A stretch of DNA of 64,000 bases from Candidatus Planktophila vernalis. GTDB lineage: Bacteria; Actinomycetota; Actinomycetes; Nanopelagicales; Nanopelagicaceae. Position 1 is the stretch's first letter; each line of letters opens with the position of its first letter. This document shows, piece by piece, positions 5,711 to 39,993 of the stretch. A program made the position numbers and the translations under genes. The notes beneath the pieces were generated by a model, which saw only the letters and a program-made list of their open reading frames with translations, had not been told where the DNA came from and searched no databases. The stretch is taken from assembly GCF_002288185.1 (NCBI RefSeq), contig NZ_CP016776.1:1116001-1180000 (forward strand), in the 5' to 3' direction.

Positions 5711-7951
5711 CTAGAGCTTCTCGACGGGTGCATAGCGCAGTAGTAATCGCTTCTCTCCGTACTGACCGAAGTTAATTGTGGCTTCAGCCTTTTCTGCCTC
5801 CCCGGCAACTGCAACTACAGAGCCCAAACCAAATGTGTCATGTGACACACGATCACCAATTTGAAGCTCCATTACTGAAATCTTCTTACCTGTTGCTCGT
5901 GGTGGTGGCGCTGATGCCACACGAGATTTACGAACTAGTGACGGTGTTAGAGATGCACCACCTTGATTGCGCCACTCAATAACATCTTCAGGAATCTCAT
6001 CAAGAAAGCGTGATGGTGGATTGTAATTTGGTGCACCCCAAGTTGAGCGATATTCAGCACGTGAAATATATAAACGTTGACGTGCACGAGTGAGGCCAAC
6101 GTAGGCAAGTCGGCGCTCTTCTTCAATTTCATCTTTTTCACCAAGAGTGCGCGAATGAGGAAAGATTCCATCTTCCATTCCCGTGAGAAAAACAGTTGGG
6201 AATTCAAGTCCCTTAGCAGTATGCAAAGTCATCATTGTCACGACACCGCCATGGTCTTCACCTTCTGGAATCTCATCGGCATCAGCTACCAAAGAGACCT
6301 TCTCTAGAAAACCAGCTAAGGAGATTTCTTCGTCTTCGCCTAATTCCTCAATTGGTCGCTCTTCATACTCCATTGAAACCGCGACTAATTCTTTTAAGTT
6401 TTCAACTCGTACTTCATCTTGTGGATCAACGCTATCGGCTAATTCTTTTAGCAACCCAGATTGTTCAAGAGCAGCTTCAACAATGACTGATGGTCTGGTT
6501 TTTGCTTCAACTAAGACATTTAAAGCGCTGATCATTGAGGTGAAATCATTAATCGCTTGCGCAGCACGTGAGGGTAATCCTGGAGCTTCAGAGCAACGAA
6601 GCAAACCTTGCCAAAATGAAATGGAGTTCGCGTTTGCAAACGCATCCACATAATCTAAAGATGTATCACCGATGCCTCGTTTAGGGACATTGATAATGCG
6701 TCGCAGAGAAATCTCATCTTCTAGGTTGGCCAAGACGCGCAAATAGGCAAGCAAGTCTTTGACTTCTCGGCGCTCATAGAAGCGCAAACCGCCTACGACC
6801 TTATAAGGCAGTGCATTACGCATGAATACTTCTTCAAAAACACGGGACTGGGCATTTGTTCTATAGAAAATTGCCGTATCGCCGGGTTGGGATTTTGATT
6901 CCTTTTGCAATTGTCGAATTTCATCAGCAATAAAAACTGCTTCATCATGTTCACTCTCGGCCACATAGCCAACAAGAGGTGCACCAGATCCGGCATCGGA
7001 CCACAAGTTCTTTTCTTTGCGGCTTTCATTGCGAGTAATGACTGCGTTAGCTGCATTTAAAATATTTTGAGTTGACCGATAATTCTGCTCAAGCAAAACT
7101 GTGCTGGCATTTGGGTAATCAAGTTCAAACTGCAGGATATTGCGAATGGTTGCACCACGAAAGCCATAAATACTTTGGTCGGCATCTCCCACCACACATA
7201 GCTCGGCAAGTGGAATACCTTCGGCTTCTGTGCCAACTAGCTCTTTAACCAATATGTATTGGGCATGATTTGTGTCCTGATACTCATCTACCAATACATG
7301 ACGAAAGCGTGATCTAAAACGGGCTTTGGCTTCTGGATAACGCTGTAGTACTTCAACTGTTTTTAGAATCAAATCATCGAAATCCATAGCGTTGGCACGC
7401 TGTAACCGTTGTTGATAGATCGTATAGACATCAGCAACTACTTGTTCAAATTGGTTGCTGGCTGCATTTATGTAATCTTGTGGCCCAAGAAGTTCATTTT
7501 TCGCATTTGAAATCATTGCTTGGAACTGACGGGCTGGGTAACGCTTGGCATCTAAGTTGAGTTCTTTAGCAACAATTGTGACCAGGCGCAGCGAATCTGC
7601 TGAATCATAAATAGAGAAAGAGTTGCTATAGCCAAGGCGCATAGCTTCTTGCCGCAAGATGCGAACACAGGCTGAGTGGAAAGTAGAAACCCACATTGAT
7701 TTTGCAATTGGTCCTACCAATTCAGCAACGCGCTCTTTCATTTCTCCGGCAGCTTTATTGGTGAAGGTGATAGCAAGAATTTGATACGGAGCGACATTTC
7801 GCCGTGACATTAAATATGCAATTCGACGCGTTAAAACACGAGTTTTACCGGAACCAGCACCGGCCACAACAAGTAATGGACCACCTGCATGAGTAACTGC
7901 TTCTGCTTGCTGAGGGTTGAGCCCAGCTAGCAGCGGATCAGTACTCGTCAT
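5711..7951 (-). CDS. pcrA: ATP-dependent DNA helicase PcrA/UvrD (UvrD1-type)
   Basis: This 746-aa superfamily 1A 3'-5' helicase acts in nucleotide excision repair and in clearing replication or recombination intermediates. Visible motifs: Q-motif LNPQQAEAV, Walker A GAGSGKT (residues 31-37), DEYQDTN (motif II), GDADQSIYGFRGA (motif III), LEQNYRST (motif IV), MTLHTAKGLEFP (motif V) and EERRLAYVGLTRA (motif VI). The C-terminal 60 residues (IGDRVSHDTFGLGSVVAV) form the Tudor-like domain that in PcrA contacts RNA polymerase. It starts divergently from a PIG-L gene across a 27-nt spacer. Confidence 0.96.
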   Translation of the reverse strand: MTSTDPLLAGLNPQQAEAVTHAGGPLLVVAGAGSGKTRVLTRRIAYLMSRRNVAPYQILAITFTNKAAGEMKERVAELVGPIAKSMWVSTFHSACVRILRQEAMRLGYSNSFSIYDSADSLRLVTIVAKELNLDAKRYPARQFQAMISNAKNELLGPQDYINAASNQFEQVVADVYTIYQQRLQRANAMDFDDLILKTVEVLQRYPEAKARFRSRFRHVLVDEYQDTNHAQYILVKELVGTEAEGIPLAELCVVGDADQSIYGFRGATIRNILQFELDYPNASTVLLEQNYRSTQNILNAANAVITRNESRKEKNLWSDAGSGAPLVGYVAESEHDEAVFIADEIRQLQKESKSQPGDTAIFYRTNAQSRVFEEVFMRNALPYKVVGGLRFYERREVKDLLAYLRVLANLEDEISLRRIINVPKRGIGDTSLDYVDAFANANSISFWQGLLRCSEAPGLPSRAAQAINDFTSMISALNVLVEAKTRPSVIVEAALEQSGLLKELADSVDPQDEVRVENLKELVAVSMEYEERPIEELGEDEEISLAGFLEKVSLVADADEIPEGEDHGGVVTMMTLHTAKGLEFPTVFLTGMEDGIFPHSRTLGEKDEIEEERRLAYVGLTRARQRLYISRAEYRSTWGAPNYNPPSRFLDEIPEDVIEWRNQGGASLTPSLVRKSRVASAPPPRATGKKISVMELQIGDRVSHDTFGLGSVVAVAGEAEKAEATINFGQYGEKRLLLRYAPVEKL

Positions 7952-7957
7952 GGTGAT

Positions 7958-7971
7958 GAGTCTATTAGGCT
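7958..7971. promoter_or_regulatory. Symmetrical bidirectional leaderless promoter (pcrA / PIG-L)
   Basis: The 27-nt gap between the divergent starts contains AGTCTA-T-TAGGCT. Read on the minus strand the left half is TAGACT, 7 nt before the pcrA ATG; the right half TAGGCT is 7 nt before the PIG-L ATG. Both fit the actinobacterial TANNNT -10 box of leaderless genes. No Shine-Dalgarno sequence fits in either direction. The same 14-mer (with the leading G) recurs at 38759-38772. Confidence 0.65.
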
Positions 7972-7978
7972 AAGCGAC

Positions 7979-8704
7979 ATGGAACCCATCGCCGATAGTG
8001 AGATCAAGCGAGTCTTGGTCGTTAGTGCCCACCCAGATGATTCAGATTTTGGAGCATCAGGAACCATTGCCCAGTGGGTCAAGAAGGGCATTGAAGTTGC
8101 CTATGTCTTTTGCACTAATGGTGATCAAGGTGGCGAAGAGTCTGGTTTCACAAAAGAAGAGATGCCTGCGATTAGACAACGTGAACAACGTGCAGCTGGT
8201 GCAGCAATCGGTGTTACCGATATTACTTTTCTTAATTACGTCGATGGTCATCTTGAAGCAACTATTGGTCTTCGAAAAGATTTAGTGCGACAGATACGCA
8301 AATCGCAACCAGATCGCATGGTTTGCCAAAGTCCTGAAAGAAACTGGGATCGCATTGGTGCAAGTCACCCGGACCATTTAGCTGCAGGTGAGGCAGCAAT
8401 TCAAGCGGTGTATCCAGATGCACGAAATCCTTTTGCATTTACAGATTTACTTGATCAAGAAGGTTTACAGCCATGGCGAGTAAAAGAAGTGTGGGTAAGT
8501 GCCTATGCAAACCCAGATCACTTTGTAGACATCACTGATACTTTTGATTTGAAGATAAAGGCGTTACAAGCACATGCATCTCAAACCGCTCATAACCCAG
8601 AATTAGAGAATATGGTCCGCGAGTGGGGTCAGCGTAATGCTGGACTTGGTGGATTGCCTGAAGGTCGTATTGCTGAAGCTTTTAAAATAGTTAACACGAA
8701 TTAA
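7979..8704 (+). CDS. PIG-L (LmbE-like) family deacetylase
   Basis: This 241-aa zinc-dependent N-deacetylase of the PIG-L/LmbE superfamily contains the metal-binding AHPDD motif (about residues 17-21) and a second HPDH motif (SHPDHLAAGEAA) that supplies the third ligand. In Actinobacteria this superfamily includes MshB and Mca (mycothiol metabolism) and lipid or antibiotic GlcNAc deacetylases. The length is closer to a generic PIG-L enzyme than to the roughly 290-aa MshB, so the substrate remains open. It appears leaderless, with TAGGCT 7 nt before the ATG. Its TAA directly abuts the stop of the convergent cyclophilin gene. Confidence 0.85.
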   Translation: MEPIADSEIKRVLVVSAHPDDSDFGASGTIAQWVKKGIEVAYVFCTNGDQGGEESGFTKEEMPAIRQREQRAAGAAIGVTDITFLNYVDGHLEATIGLRKDLVRQIRKSQPDRMVCQSPERNWDRIGASHPDHLAAGEAAIQAVYPDARNPFAFTDLLDQEGLQPWRVKEVWVSAYANPDHFVDITDTFDLKIKALQAHASQTAHNPELENMVREWGQRNAGLGGLPEGRIAEAFKIVNTN

Positions 8705-19101: not shown

Positions 19102-20048
19102 TAACGCCAGGATTCCCCACCAGTTAAATCACTAACAACATAACCTTCTTTGCCAACATACCAAGCTGTAATCATTTTGCGAGCAACAGAGATTGATGGT
19201 GGCAACAAAATATCACTACTTGCCACAGCCTTCTTCATCTCATCTCTTGTAAACCAACGAATCTCAGTGATTTCTTCACCATCAGGTCGCGCATTTTCTG
19301 GGTGATCTGTAATTGCTTCAAAGGCAATCATGATTGAAGCTGGGAAAGGCCAGGCTTGTGAGCGCAAGTAATTAATATCGTTGCAATACACACCAGCTTC
19401 TTCAAAAACTTCACGTGATACACACTCTTCAAAAGATTCACCTGGTTCAACAAAGCCTGCAAAAGTTGAGAAACGCTTTTCTGGCCATACTGGTTGATGA
19501 CCTAACAGGATTCGGTCTGTTGAATCTTTTACTAAAACAATTACTGCTGGATCTGTGCGGGGGTGATGTTGTGTTGAGTCTTCAACACACACACGTACTG
19601 ATCCCCCTAAATCACTTACTGTGGCAGCACCGCACCGTGCACAACACGGATGTGTTGCATGCCAGTTAGCAAGACCAACTGCATGCATTGCTAAGGAGAT
19701 TTCAACTTCATCCAAGCTACTTCCCAGTTCGCGAAGAGTTGCAAACCCTTCATACTTTTCTTCTTTGGTAGCAGGTTCGTTTATCCACGATGTTCGCCAG
19801 GCGAAATATGGTGTGCTGTCATCGCGGCCAAGGCCTAAGAAAAAGCGATCACCTTCTATAAATGAATCCATCTGTGCAGAAACTGTGGCTGCATCACAAA
19901 AAACAAGAGCATCATCAGTTGCACTGATTCGCCCATCGATGATCTGAACAATCATCGCCTTTTTCCAGAGCTCTTCTAAGGCCGTGGCATCTGTGCGCAG
20001 GTGGCTAGCGCGATTAATCGGGGATAAGGATTGATTGCGCGCGCTCAT
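19101..20048 (-). CDS. nudC: NAD(H) diphosphatase NudC (Nudix hydrolase)
   Basis: This protein of about 315 aa hydrolyses NADH to NMNH and AMP, and in some bacteria removes NAD caps from RNA. The middle contains a zinc ribbon (HPCCARCGAAT with a later Cys in RVCVEDS), then the Nudix box GFVEPGESFEECVSREVFEE (plus AGV). The C-terminal EITEIRWFTRDEM is also typical. I take the ATG at 20048; the longer frame up to 20105 crosses the promoter and start of the divergent gene. The gene starts the nudC-uvrD2 pair; its neighbours agree with the actinobacterial DNA-repair cluster. Confidence 0.9.
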   Translation of the reverse strand: MSARNQSLSPINRASHLRTDATALEELWKKAMIVQIIDGRISATDDALVFCDAATVSAQMDSFIEGDRFFLGLGRDDSTPYFAWRTSWINEPATKEEKYEGFATLRELGSSLDEVEISLAMHAVGLANWHATHPCCARCGAATVSDLGGSVRVCVEDSTQHHPRTDPAVIVLVKDSTDRILLGHQPVWPEKRFSTFAGFVEPGESFEECVSREVFEEAGVYCNDINYLRSQAWPFPASIMIAFEAITDHPENARPDGEEITEIRWFTRDEMKKAVASSDILLPPSISVARKMITAWYVGKEGYVVSDLTGGESWR

Positions 20049-20056
20049 AGGGGTGA

Positions 20057-20069
20057 ACGCTACTAGCAT
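20057..20069. promoter_or_regulatory. Symmetrical bidirectional promoter (nudC / EEP gene)
   Basis: ACGCTA-C-TAGCAT places TAGCGT (minus strand) 8 nt before the nudC ATG and TAGCAT 6 nt before the plus-strand ATG at 20076. The two opposed TANNNT boxes are separated by one base, the same geometry as at 7959-7971 and 38760-38772 although the bases differ. No SD is visible for either gene. Confidence 0.6.
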
Positions 20070-20075
20070 CGCCCC

Positions 20076-20879
20076 ATGCGCATAACATCGTGGAATCTGC
20101 TGCACGGGCTGCCCATTCCCCCCGATGAAGACGCCGATCCGCAGGCTCTGCTCTCTGCCGCCCTTAGCCAGCTAGCCACTGATGTCATTGGCCTGCAAGA
20201 AGTCGATTACTTCCTTGAGCGATCAGGTAATCACAATCAAACGGGCAATGTTGCTTCAATTGTGGGCGCAAAAGATTGGGCCTTTGCTCCATCACTTATG
20301 GGATCACCAGATGAAGATTACCGAAATCCAACTGAGAGTGATAACAAACTCATTACAAATAAAAGTGATGTAGCACCAGGATCTTATGGAATTGGAATGG
20401 CTTCAAAGATTCCAGTTGATTCCTGGCACCGCTTAGAACTTAAAGGCTCACCCGTTGGTGTCTTGATGGCATTTCCAGTTGATGGAAAGTTAAAACGTGT
20501 CTATGTCAGAGACCATCCACGAAGTGCACTTGCTGCCAAATTAGATAATGGCTGGCTCATTATCAATACTCATCTTTCATTTGTGCCGGGATTTTCGCTC
20601 GCCCAGTTAATAAAGATTAAGCGTTGGGCAAATACTTTGGGTGTAACAGATAAATCTAAGATTCTAATCATGGGAGATCTCAATATTCCTTTTGCCATAT
20701 TTGCCCACGGATTTAAGTGGAGATCTCTGGCAGCTATGCGCACATTTCCAAGTTGGTATCCAAAGGTGCAGATTGACTACTTTCTTTCCCAAAAGTTAAC
20801 TGCAAAAGATGTTCAACATATCCAATACCCTCACTCAGGAATGAGTGATCACTTACCACTGCAGATTGAAGTTGATTAA
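20076..20879 (+). CDS. Endonuclease/exonuclease/phosphatase (EEP) family protein
   Basis: This 267-aa DNase I-like fold protein starts MRITSWNLLHG (the conserved Asn). The conserved motifs continue with DVIGLQEVDYF (metal-binding Glu), ILIMGDLNIP (Asp-x-Asn) and SGMSDHLPLQIEV (SDH-P catalytic His). These match the EEP superfamily, which includes exonuclease III, phosphodiesterases and sphingomyelinases; the actual substrate cannot be read from the sequence. No signal peptide is present. It is leaderless, with TAGCAT 6 nt before the ATG, and its stop overlaps that of adnB by 4 nt. It occupies the slot between nudC and adnB within the repair cluster. Confidence 0.85.
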   Translation: MRITSWNLLHGLPIPPDEDADPQALLSAALSQLATDVIGLQEVDYFLERSGNHNQTGNVASIVGAKDWAFAPSLMGSPDEDYRNPTESDNKLITNKSDVAPGSYGIGMASKIPVDSWHRLELKGSPVGVLMAFPVDGKLKRVYVRDHPRSALAAKLDNGWLIINTHLSFVPGFSLAQLIKIKRWANTLGVTDKSKILIMGDLNIPFAIFAHGFKWRSLAAMRTFPSWYPKVQIDYFLSQKLTAKDVQHIQYPHSGMSDHLPLQIEVD

Positions 20880-37392: not shown

Positions 37393-37803
37393 ATGAGCAC
37401 CGTAACTAAAATGGCGATTCAGGGCCCTGGACTTAAAAAACAAGGCATCGTCGTGCTGCAGAGCTTCTTTATTGGTTTCTTTACTTTCATTGAACTCTGG
37501 TTGCGCAGTGGTGTTGGAATCCTGACAGGTGCAATGATTCTTCTTTCATTCTATGGCGCACTTCGCTTTGGTCGCCCTGGCACAACCTATGTCTCTGTTG
37601 TTACTCCACCGCTGGCTTTTGCCGCCAACGCTCTTTTCTGGATCATGATCTTTGATGGCTTTAGACCATCCCGCGTTGGCATTGATTTCATTGCAGCACT
37701 TGCGAGCGTGGCACCGTTTCTTATCATCGGTGCTACCTATGGCTGGTTTGTTTATTTAAATGCAAAGGCAAAAACTAAGCCTTCTAAAGCCCGTAGAGAT
37801 TAA
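37393..37803 (+). CDS. DUF6542-type small membrane protein
   Basis: This 136-aa protein has about four hydrophobic helices (near residues 24-36, 40-55, 68-84 and 98-122) and a basic tail ending KPSKARRD. The order next to ispH, ychF and xseA is conserved in Actinobacteria, where the gene is annotated as a DUF6542 protein; I base the family name on that context plus the helix layout. No enzymatic motif is visible. Its ATG follows the rmuC TAA immediately, and its stop overlaps the ispH stop (TTAA). Confidence 0.6.
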
Positions 37804-38753
37804 ATCCCAGCTGCTTTCATATCTTTTCGAAGCTCCGGTGGCAGCGCAAAGAGCAGTGATTCTTCCATTGCTGTAATTGTTTCAACATCGCCATAACCAT
37901 GCTCGGCCAGGGTCTTTAAAACATCAGTAACTAAGATCTCTGGAACAGATGCACCACTTGTTAAACCAATAGTTTCAACTCCGCTAAACCACTCATCTTG
38001 AATCTCTTCGGCATAGTCAACTAAATACGATGCTTTTGCTCCATACTCCAGGGCTACTTCAACCAAGCGCACAGAGTTAGAAGAGTTTTTAGATCCAACA
38101 ACAATGACTAGATCTGCTTGTGGGGCGATAGTTTTAATCGCTTCTTGGCGGTTTTGTGTGGCATAGCAAATGTCATCACTAGGTGGATCTTGAATCTCTG
38201 GAAAGCGCTCCTTCAAGATTGCAACAGCATCAAGAGTTTCATCAACGCTAAGTGTGGTTTGCGATAGCCAGACAAGTTTCTTTCCTGGAGTTGGTTCAAC
38301 TGTGCGAGCACCATCTAGGCCATCAACAATTCTGACCTGACCAACTGCTTCACCTGCTGTGCCCTCAACTTCTTCATGACCGTGGTGGCCGATAAGCAAA
38401 ATTTCAGCATCTTCTGCAGCAAAGCGTCTTGCTTCCATATGCACTTTAGTTACAAGTGGACAGGTTGCATCAATTGTCTTTAATGATCGGGCAGCTGCTT
38501 GTTCGTGAACGAGTGGTGCAACACCATGGGCTGAGAAAACAACGGTCTTGCCCTCTGGAACTTCATCAGTTTCATCAACAAAGATGGCACCTTTTGATTC
38601 CAAACTGGCAACAACGTGGACGTTGTGAACAATCTGCTTTCTCACATAGACAGGTGCTCCATAGAGGGCCAAGGCTTTTTCGACCGTGATAACAGCGCGG
38701 TCAACACCTGCGCAATATCCGCGGGGCGCAGCAAGTAGAACTCTCTTAGCCAT
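37800..38753 (-). CDS. ispH: 4-hydroxy-3-methylbut-2-enyl diphosphate reductase IspH
   Basis: This 317-aa Fe-S enzyme makes IPP and DMAPP in the last step of the MEP pathway. Cluster cysteines appear in [25 protein letters not shown] and [11 protein letters not shown]; the substrate-binding HH region is [16 protein letters not shown], and [14 protein letters not shown] is also characteristic. The length matches the family. It is leaderless: TAGACT lies 6 nt before the ATG inside the shared spacer with xseA. It supplies prenyl precursors to enzymes such as the cis-prenyltransferase at 44131-44922. Confidence 0.97.
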
Positions 38754-38758
38754 GAGGG

Positions 38759-38772
38759 GAGTCTATTAGGCT
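38759..38772. promoter_or_regulatory. Symmetrical bidirectional leaderless promoter (ispH / xseA)
   Basis: The same 14-mer as at 7958-7971 (G-AGTCTA-T-TAGGCT). TAGACT on the minus strand is 6 nt from the ispH ATG and TAGGCT is 6 nt from the xseA ATG; the whole spacer between the two starts is 25 nt. No SD fits on either side. Confidence 0.65.
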
Positions 38773-38778
38773 GGGCAC

Positions 38779-39993
38779 ATGTTCGAAACTTCAAGTGAAT
38801 CCCCCGCGCCTGTGCGGGTGGTCACTGAAGCAATAAAAGAATATGTAGATCGCCTTGGCCCTATCTGGGTGGAAGGTGAAATCTCAGAACTCAATGAACG
38901 CAGCGGCATGATGGCTTTTATTCGCCTGCGCGACCCCAGCGTTGATATGTCCTTATCGGTGATGTGTCACAAATCAGTTATTGCAGCGATTCAACCTCTG
39001 CCAGCGAATGCGCGCGTAGTGATGTATGCAAAGCCATCTTGGTATACAAAAAACGGCTCCCTTACTTTATCTGCCCGAGAAATCCGCCAGGTAGGTGTGG
39101 GTGAATTACTTGCCCGTCTTGAAGCGTTAAAAACTCTGCTTGCCTCTGAGGGATTATTTGATTCAGATCGAAAAGTTAGTTTGCCACTACTGCCAAAAAA
39201 GATTGGTCTTATCTGCGGTCGCAATACTGATGCAGAAAAAGATGTTGTTGAAAACGCTAAACGCCGCTGGCCCAGCGTTGAATTTGAAATCCGTGAAGTC
39301 ACTGTCCAAGGTGCTGCGGCAGTATCTGAAGTATCTGAAGCGCTGCGCGAACTAGAGGCAAATAAAGATGTTGAAGTCATCATCATTACTAGAGGCGGCG
39401 GATCCTTTGAAGATCTACTGCCCTTTAGCGATGAGTCATTAGTGCGACTTGCAGCATCCTGTGTAACTCCGATTGTTAGCGCCATCGGCCATGAAAAAGA
39501 TTCTCCGCTACTTGATCTCGTTGCAGATTTTCGAGCATCGACTCCAACCGATGCTGCAAAGCGGGTTGTGCCAGATATTGCCGAAGAGATAGAGATGATT
39601 TCAAAGCTGACCGATAGAGCCCGTCGCACATTGCTGGCTCGCATTGAAATGGAATCCACCCGCATTAAATCCTTCAAAGATCGCCCAGTAATGAAAGATC
39701 CTCACGTGATCATCACCTCTCGTGCTGAAATCATTGTGGCGCTTAAAGATCGTGCCCATCGCTCTTTTGCTGGCCATGTCAAAGTTGCTAAAGAAGAGTT
39801 AGTACAAATCAAGGCCCGTGTTCGAGCTCTATCACCACAGGCCACCTTGGATCGTGGTTACTCAGTAGTGCAGTTAGCCAACGGCGATATTGCCCGTGAT
39901 GCAACGAAGTTAAAAGCAGGCGATGTTTTGCGCTTGCGCCTTGCAAAGGGCGAGACCAATGCCACAGTGACGCCGAATAATACAAAGGAGTAG
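38779..39993 (+). CDS. xseA: Exodeoxyribonuclease VII large subunit XseA
   Basis: This 404-aa catalytic subunit of the ATP-independent single-strand exonuclease VII has an N-terminal OB fold (VTEAIKEYVDRLGPIWVEGE through the FIRLRDPS segment), the central catalytic domain with KKIGLICGRNTDAEKDVVEN, IITRGGGSFEDLLPF and SAIGHEKDSPLLDLVADFRA, and a helical C-terminal region ending LDRGYSVVQLANGDI. The canonical motifs are intact. It is followed by xseB after 9 nt. It is leaderless, sharing its spacer with ispH. Confidence 0.97.
   Translation: MFETSSESPAPVRVVTEAIKEYVDRLGPIWVEGEISELNERSGMMAFIRLRDPSVDMSLSVMCHKSVIAAIQPLPANARVVMYAKPSWYTKNGSLTLSAREIRQVGVGELLARLEALKTLLASEGLFDSDRKVSLPLLPKKIGLICGRNTDAEKDVVENAKRRWPSVEFEIREVTVQGAAAVSEVSEALRELEANKDVEVIIITRGGGSFEDLLPFSDESLVRLAASCVTPIVSAIGHEKDSPLLDLVADFRASTPTDAAKRVVPDIAEEIEMISKLTDRARRTLLARIEMESTRIKSFKDRPVMKDPHVIITSRAEIIVALKDRAHRSFAGHVKVAKEELVQIKARVRALSPQATLDRGYSVVQLANGDIARDATKLKAGDVLRLRLAKGETNATVTPNNTKE

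Follow-up and report, generated by a model that had tools for sequence, protein, structure and literature searches.

Bidirectional promoters with symmetrical −10 elements have been described by Warman et al. (2021); as that work is reported in later papers by that group (PMC12825309 and PMC10268837), the two transcription starts lie 7–25 bp apart and a −10 element is shared between the two directions, with 18 and 23 among the preferred start distances of the two-way promoters of E. coli. In Actinobacteria, leaderless promoters carry a TANNNT hexamer some 12 nt ahead of the start codon, show no −35 consensus and serve about a fifth of the genes (Zheng et al. 2011, PMC3160421; Cortes et al. 2013, PMC3898074). 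Closely juxtaposed divergent promoters are known in M. tuberculosis. Our literature searches on leaderless promoters in acI bacteria and on abutting promoters in Actinobacteria found nothing specific.

Here we analyse two divergent gene pairs, pcrA/PIG-L and ispH/xseA, of Candidatus Planktophila vernalis, a freshwater actinobacterium whose genome is very small. Both lie in one window, by which we mean the whole stretch of 64,000 nt of DNA that was analysed. With a probability of about 0.87, we read each of their spacers as two abutting leaderless promoters, reduced to the −10 element and placed tail to tail, a compact variant of the known bidirectional promoters.

As in the class of Warman et al., in so far as the two sources above outline it, one short stretch of DNA is predicted to drive divergent mRNAs, with the −10 elements as the main determinant, and the distances of 18 and 23 recur as two overlapping classes both in this genome and in one from another genus of the family. 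Unlike in that class, the boxes here stand side by side with no base in common, and leaderless transcripts are predicted in both directions. If transcription starts at the ATGs, the predicted start distances are 26 (ispH/xseA) and 28 (pcrA/PIG-L), beyond the published 7–25 bp; no −10 element is shared at the two sites, although other divergent pairs in the genome do share bases. The two sites just miss the published class, as outlined there, yet would probably work like it. With the leaderless promoters of Actinobacteria they have in common the first T of TANNNT at about −12 and the lack of a conserved −35, and they differ from those reported in a sharper consensus (TAGRCT), in the tail-to-tail packing of two boxes and in their conservation across a family.

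Layout of the two sites

The 14-mer GAGTCTATTAGGCT occurs between divergent ATGs at 7958–7971 (pcrA/PIG-L) and at 38759–38772 (ispH/xseA). Its leading G, the 14th base, is not conserved and is incidental; the unit kept by relatives is the 13-mer AGTCTATTAGGCT, at 7959–7971 and 38760–38772, composed of a minus-strand box TAGACT, one base (T) and a plus-strand box TAGGCT, facing outward. The features of the two loci are as follows.

5711–7951, minus strand: pcrA, DNA helicase (TIGR01073, above cut-off)
7959–7964, minus strand: −10 box TAGACT of pcrA, in leaderless position, 7 nt before the ATG at 7951
7965: single base separating the pcrA and PIG-L boxes
7966–7971, plus strand: −10 box TAGGCT of the PIG-L gene, 7 nt before the ATG at 7979
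7979–8704, plus strand: PIG-L family deacetylase (PF02585)
37800–38753, minus strand: ispH (4-hydroxy-3-methylbut-2-enyl diphosphate reductase)
38760–38765, minus strand: −10 box TAGACT of ispH, 6 nt before the ATG at 38753
38766: single base separating the ispH and xseA boxes, T or A in relatives
38767–38772, plus strand: −10 box TAGGCT of xseA, 6 nt before the ATG at 38779
38779–39993, plus strand: xseA, exodeoxyribonuclease VII large subunit

The start codons are 27 nt apart at pcrA/PIG-L and 25 nt apart at ispH/xseA, the boxes stand 7/7 and 6/6 nt from their ATGs, and the first T of TANNNT falls at −12 or −13 at all four genes. A preliminary description of this DNA had reported the repeated 14-mer, the outward TANNNT boxes with one base between them 6–7 nt from an ATG, and the names of the four genes; coordinates, spacers, geometry and gene names are all confirmed.

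A LexA/SOS box at pcrA or xseA was sought by eye and rejected: the TTCGAA at the xseA start represents codons 2–3 (Phe-Glu), and the other half-box is missing.

Predicted leaderless −10 boxes across the genome

The identity of the halves was addressed in a sample of 864 of the 1364 kb of the genome, window included, in which genes were called with a codon model blind to promoters and starts were those of a simple caller. Of the 188 divergent starts, 70 have the first T of TANNNT at −13/−12; elsewhere two positions yield 4.5, and motifs with permuted letters reach 3–10 starts at −13/−12. This position, together with the footprinting in relatives described below, strongly supports the two-way leaderless TANNNT promoter that had been proposed for the sites. 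The consensus of 156 boxes in leaderless position is TAGRCT, and the two commonest among them are TAGACT (17 boxes) and TAGGCT (16), for which the genome's TANNNT usage predicts 0.85 and 1.55. The same letters occur at two unrelated pairs because each half is a favourite leaderless −10 box of the genome; the 13 common letters would represent two halves at the local consensus (TAGACT, TAGGCT) and not one copied part. The flanks of the two loci are unrelated, which leads us to reject the copying of a part from one to the other. The −35 region holds almost no information, with a weak T at −35 only (0.12 bits).

As side observations on the boxes, a T comes next after TAGRCT, this consensus is more sharply defined than the TANNNT described in high-GC Actinobacteria, and C is common shortly before the ATG in the leaderless-box sample and in the window.

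Mechanistically, two −10 elements of the housekeeping sigma factor on opposite strands, with 1 bp between them (ANNNTA-N-TANNNT), would allow RNA polymerase to load in either orientation and to melt whichever box it recognised. Transcription would start about 7 nt past the box, at the A of the ATG, and both mRNAs would be leaderless and translated as such; the 6–7 nt between box and ATG suggest that the transcript begins with the codon's first base. The space between the start codons would amount to little more than the two boxes, a −35 hexamer would be unnecessary, and any upstream contact would lie in the opening codons of the gene on the other strand. Because the footprints would overlap almost completely, polymerase bound in one direction should preclude binding in the other.

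A third back-to-back pair in the window, nudC/EEP, was not listed in the preliminary description. Its spacer (20049–20075) carries ACGCTA-C-TAGCAT, with the boxes at 20057–20069 (ACGCTACTAGCAT) 8 and 6 nt from the ATGs, in the same geometry and with other letters.

20057–20062, minus strand: −10 box TAGCGT of the nudC-like NAD+ diphosphatase gene, 8 nt before the ATG at 20048
20064–20069, plus strand: −10 box TAGCAT of the endonuclease/exonuclease/phosphatase-family gene, 6 nt before the ATG at 20076

The distance of 8 nt at nudC is one above the usual and speaks against the proposed mechanism.

With blind start choice, boxes stand at both starts in 14 of the 94 sampled divergent pairs, compared with 0/94 for each of five control motifs; the number rises to 23/94 when alternative starts and one more position are allowed. 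The gaps between boxes in these 23 pairs are −7, −7, −2, +1, +1, +1, +4, +6, +8, +12, +12 and +13, the rest being larger and running into the tens of bases. At gaps of −7 and −2 the boxes overlap and the starts are 18 and 23 apart, and a genome of another genus of the family (G008) shows gaps of −7, −2, −2 and −2. These two values are largely explained by chance, because shared box letters make them cheap. A gap of +1 is not favoured by such letter-sharing arithmetic; it was found at three loci, against none at 0, 2 and 3, a small count that does not prove +1 special.

Another divergent pair (L207:7186–7213) carries the same half-boxes four bases apart, AGTCTA-CTTA-TAGGCT; judged by eye from the translations, one of its genes resembles murA (enolpyruvyl transferase) and the other that of a cobalamin adenosyltransferase.

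Boxes lie within 12 nt of each other in 16 of 137 family pairs and in 0 of 47 pairs of the sole comparison genome, a non-streamlined member of another family with 72% GC (G141; Fisher p 0.013). Divergent spacers of at most 30 nt are likewise found in 17/137 against 1/47 (p 0.046). Compact two-way promoters appear commoner in this lineage, as judged against that one genome. It had been suggested that such promoters stand in place of full intergenic regions; the enrichment of short spacers with abutting or overlapping boxes agrees with this, but the median divergent spacer in this genome is 116 nt.

Conservation and the one-base gap

At ispH/xseA, ANNNTANTANNNT is present in 79 of the 79 relatives in which the xseA start is covered; its distance to xseA is exactly 6 nt, that to ispH 6 or 7 nt, and the identical 13-mer is found in 63 of these relatives. 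The 54 distinct spacers show no change in the TA or the T of either box, and the variability of the flanks is close to that of third codon positions. In other genera of the family, 16 of 20 genomes keep the ANNNTA-N-TANNNT geometry with altered NNN letters (for example ATCCTATTAGGAT, AGCCTAATAGAGT and ATCCTAATAGAAT). The remaining four have a longer spacer with the boxes apart; in three of these loci (L257, L260, L269) a TANNNT still stands near the start of each gene, and in the fourth (L266) the xseA start is ambiguous. Outside the family (L142–L161, L182–L201), ispH and xseA are mostly divergent, with TANNNT-like boxes near their starts. At nudC/EEP, the family relatives that were read keep ANNNTA-N-TANNNT and the one-base gap with free inner letters, in proteins down to about 40% identity.

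The 13-mer at pcrA/PIG-L is kept within the genus, and more distant genera have a different arrangement there. In genus g3 (L132–L140, L162, L176) both boxes are kept, often as ATTCTATTAGGCT, and the PIG-L ATG lies 30–40 nt further downstream behind an SD-like sequence. Judging by these loci, PIG-L in g3 is a leaderless gene that probably turned leadered and retained its old promoter. The boxes, not the ATG, would set the promoter, since in g3 the boxes stayed while the ATG moved.

No xseA match was found in several genera of the family (G001, G017, G029 and G041 in g2; G004, G019 and G031 in g5; G033, G044 and G073 in g7), including three single-contig genomes that are 99–100% complete; those genera have apparently lost exonuclease VII.

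A qualification of the preferred reading concerns the gap itself, which could be a neutral by-product of spacer shrinkage: ordinary leaderless promoters would have been pushed together by deletion, and their adjacency would have no function. The divergent ispH/xseA pairs of other Actinomycetes, with boxes several to over a hundred bases apart against one base here, fit this view, as do the genes that mostly retain a box near their start where the abutment is broken and the various gaps from 1 to 13 at other pairs. Against it, the one-base gap is kept at ispH/xseA (16/20 and 79/79) and at nudC/EEP although the outer spacer lengths vary. We consider the chances of a neutral gap to be evenly balanced. 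The converse proposal, that the one-base tail-to-tail arrangement forms a distinct functional class in streamlined actinobacteria, would have the two promoters share a melting region, the choice of direction fix the ratio of the two leaderless mRNAs without a regulator, and selection keep the gap for that purpose; this we hold to be improbable.

It is still less probable that a dimeric transcription factor co-regulates both gene pairs with the 13-bp imperfect palindrome as its operator. Most genomes of the genus do carry the inverted repeat AGYCTA-W-TAGRCT at these two loci, and the N positions at ispH/xseA are more conserved than TANNNT alone requires. However, no exact copy stands at other promoters of the genome, and the four genes have no evident common pathway. 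Changes in relatives are one-sided and leave the other half unmatched (AGTCTATTAGGAT, AGTCTATTAGCCT, ATTCTATTAGGCT), the letters required for TANNNT on each strand never vary, each half holds the −10 distance from its own ATG, and the halves are the genome's commonest −10 hexamers. The signs of an operator that we looked for at these loci, namely symmetric conservation, covarying half-sites and one-directional targets, did not appear.

Copy number and significance

The pair of abutting −10 boxes was also followed through the genome and the family. The single-contig genome of 1,364,004 bases contains exactly 2 copies of GAGTCTATTAGGCT, both inside the window, and the 13-mer AGTCTATTAGGCT likewise occurs exactly twice in the 1.36 Mb; AGNCTANTAGNCT is confined to these two loci genome-wide. 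Near copies at genome positions 844619 and 995220 fall outside divergent spacers as drawn by the simple gene caller. Among the 101 family genomes searched, the 13-mer is found once or twice per genome in 33 of the 34 of the same genus and in few outside it, and its places in the genus, where coordinates are comparable, adjoin ispH/xseA and the PIG-L gene. The 13-mer read in reverse is absent from this genome and nearly absent from the 101. The 13-mer is real, beyond chance and under selection.

The general pattern ANNNTA-N-TANNNT occurs 37 times in the 864 kb, 4 of them in divergent spacers against about 0.7 expected by length, a weak enrichment. The unit is not a genome-wide part, because genomes of the genus hold one or two copies of the 13-mer and few outside the genus hold any. 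There is no support for the claim that a minimal two-way promoter has become standard in the lineage, as the 13-mer stands at two loci only and box spacings are diverse. The identical letters at two unrelated pairs and the family's enrichment in short divergent spacers had suggested a single 14-mer that spread, or was selected, as the default promoter for divergent genes, a reading already refuted by the one or two copies per genome, the 92 of 94 sampled divergent pairs that do without it, their widely varying spacings and the unrelated flanks of the two copies.

Read as two abutting leaderless −10 promoters, the sites show how little room a promoter pair may need, some 25 bp from one start codon to the other, in an arrangement that a family of common freshwater bacteria has conserved. 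The start distances (18, 23, 26 and wider), together with the lineages in which the abutment is broken, form a natural series for probing polymerase competition and the balance between two genes. The local −10 consensus TAGRCT is in addition an aid to the annotation of start codons in Nanopelagicales.
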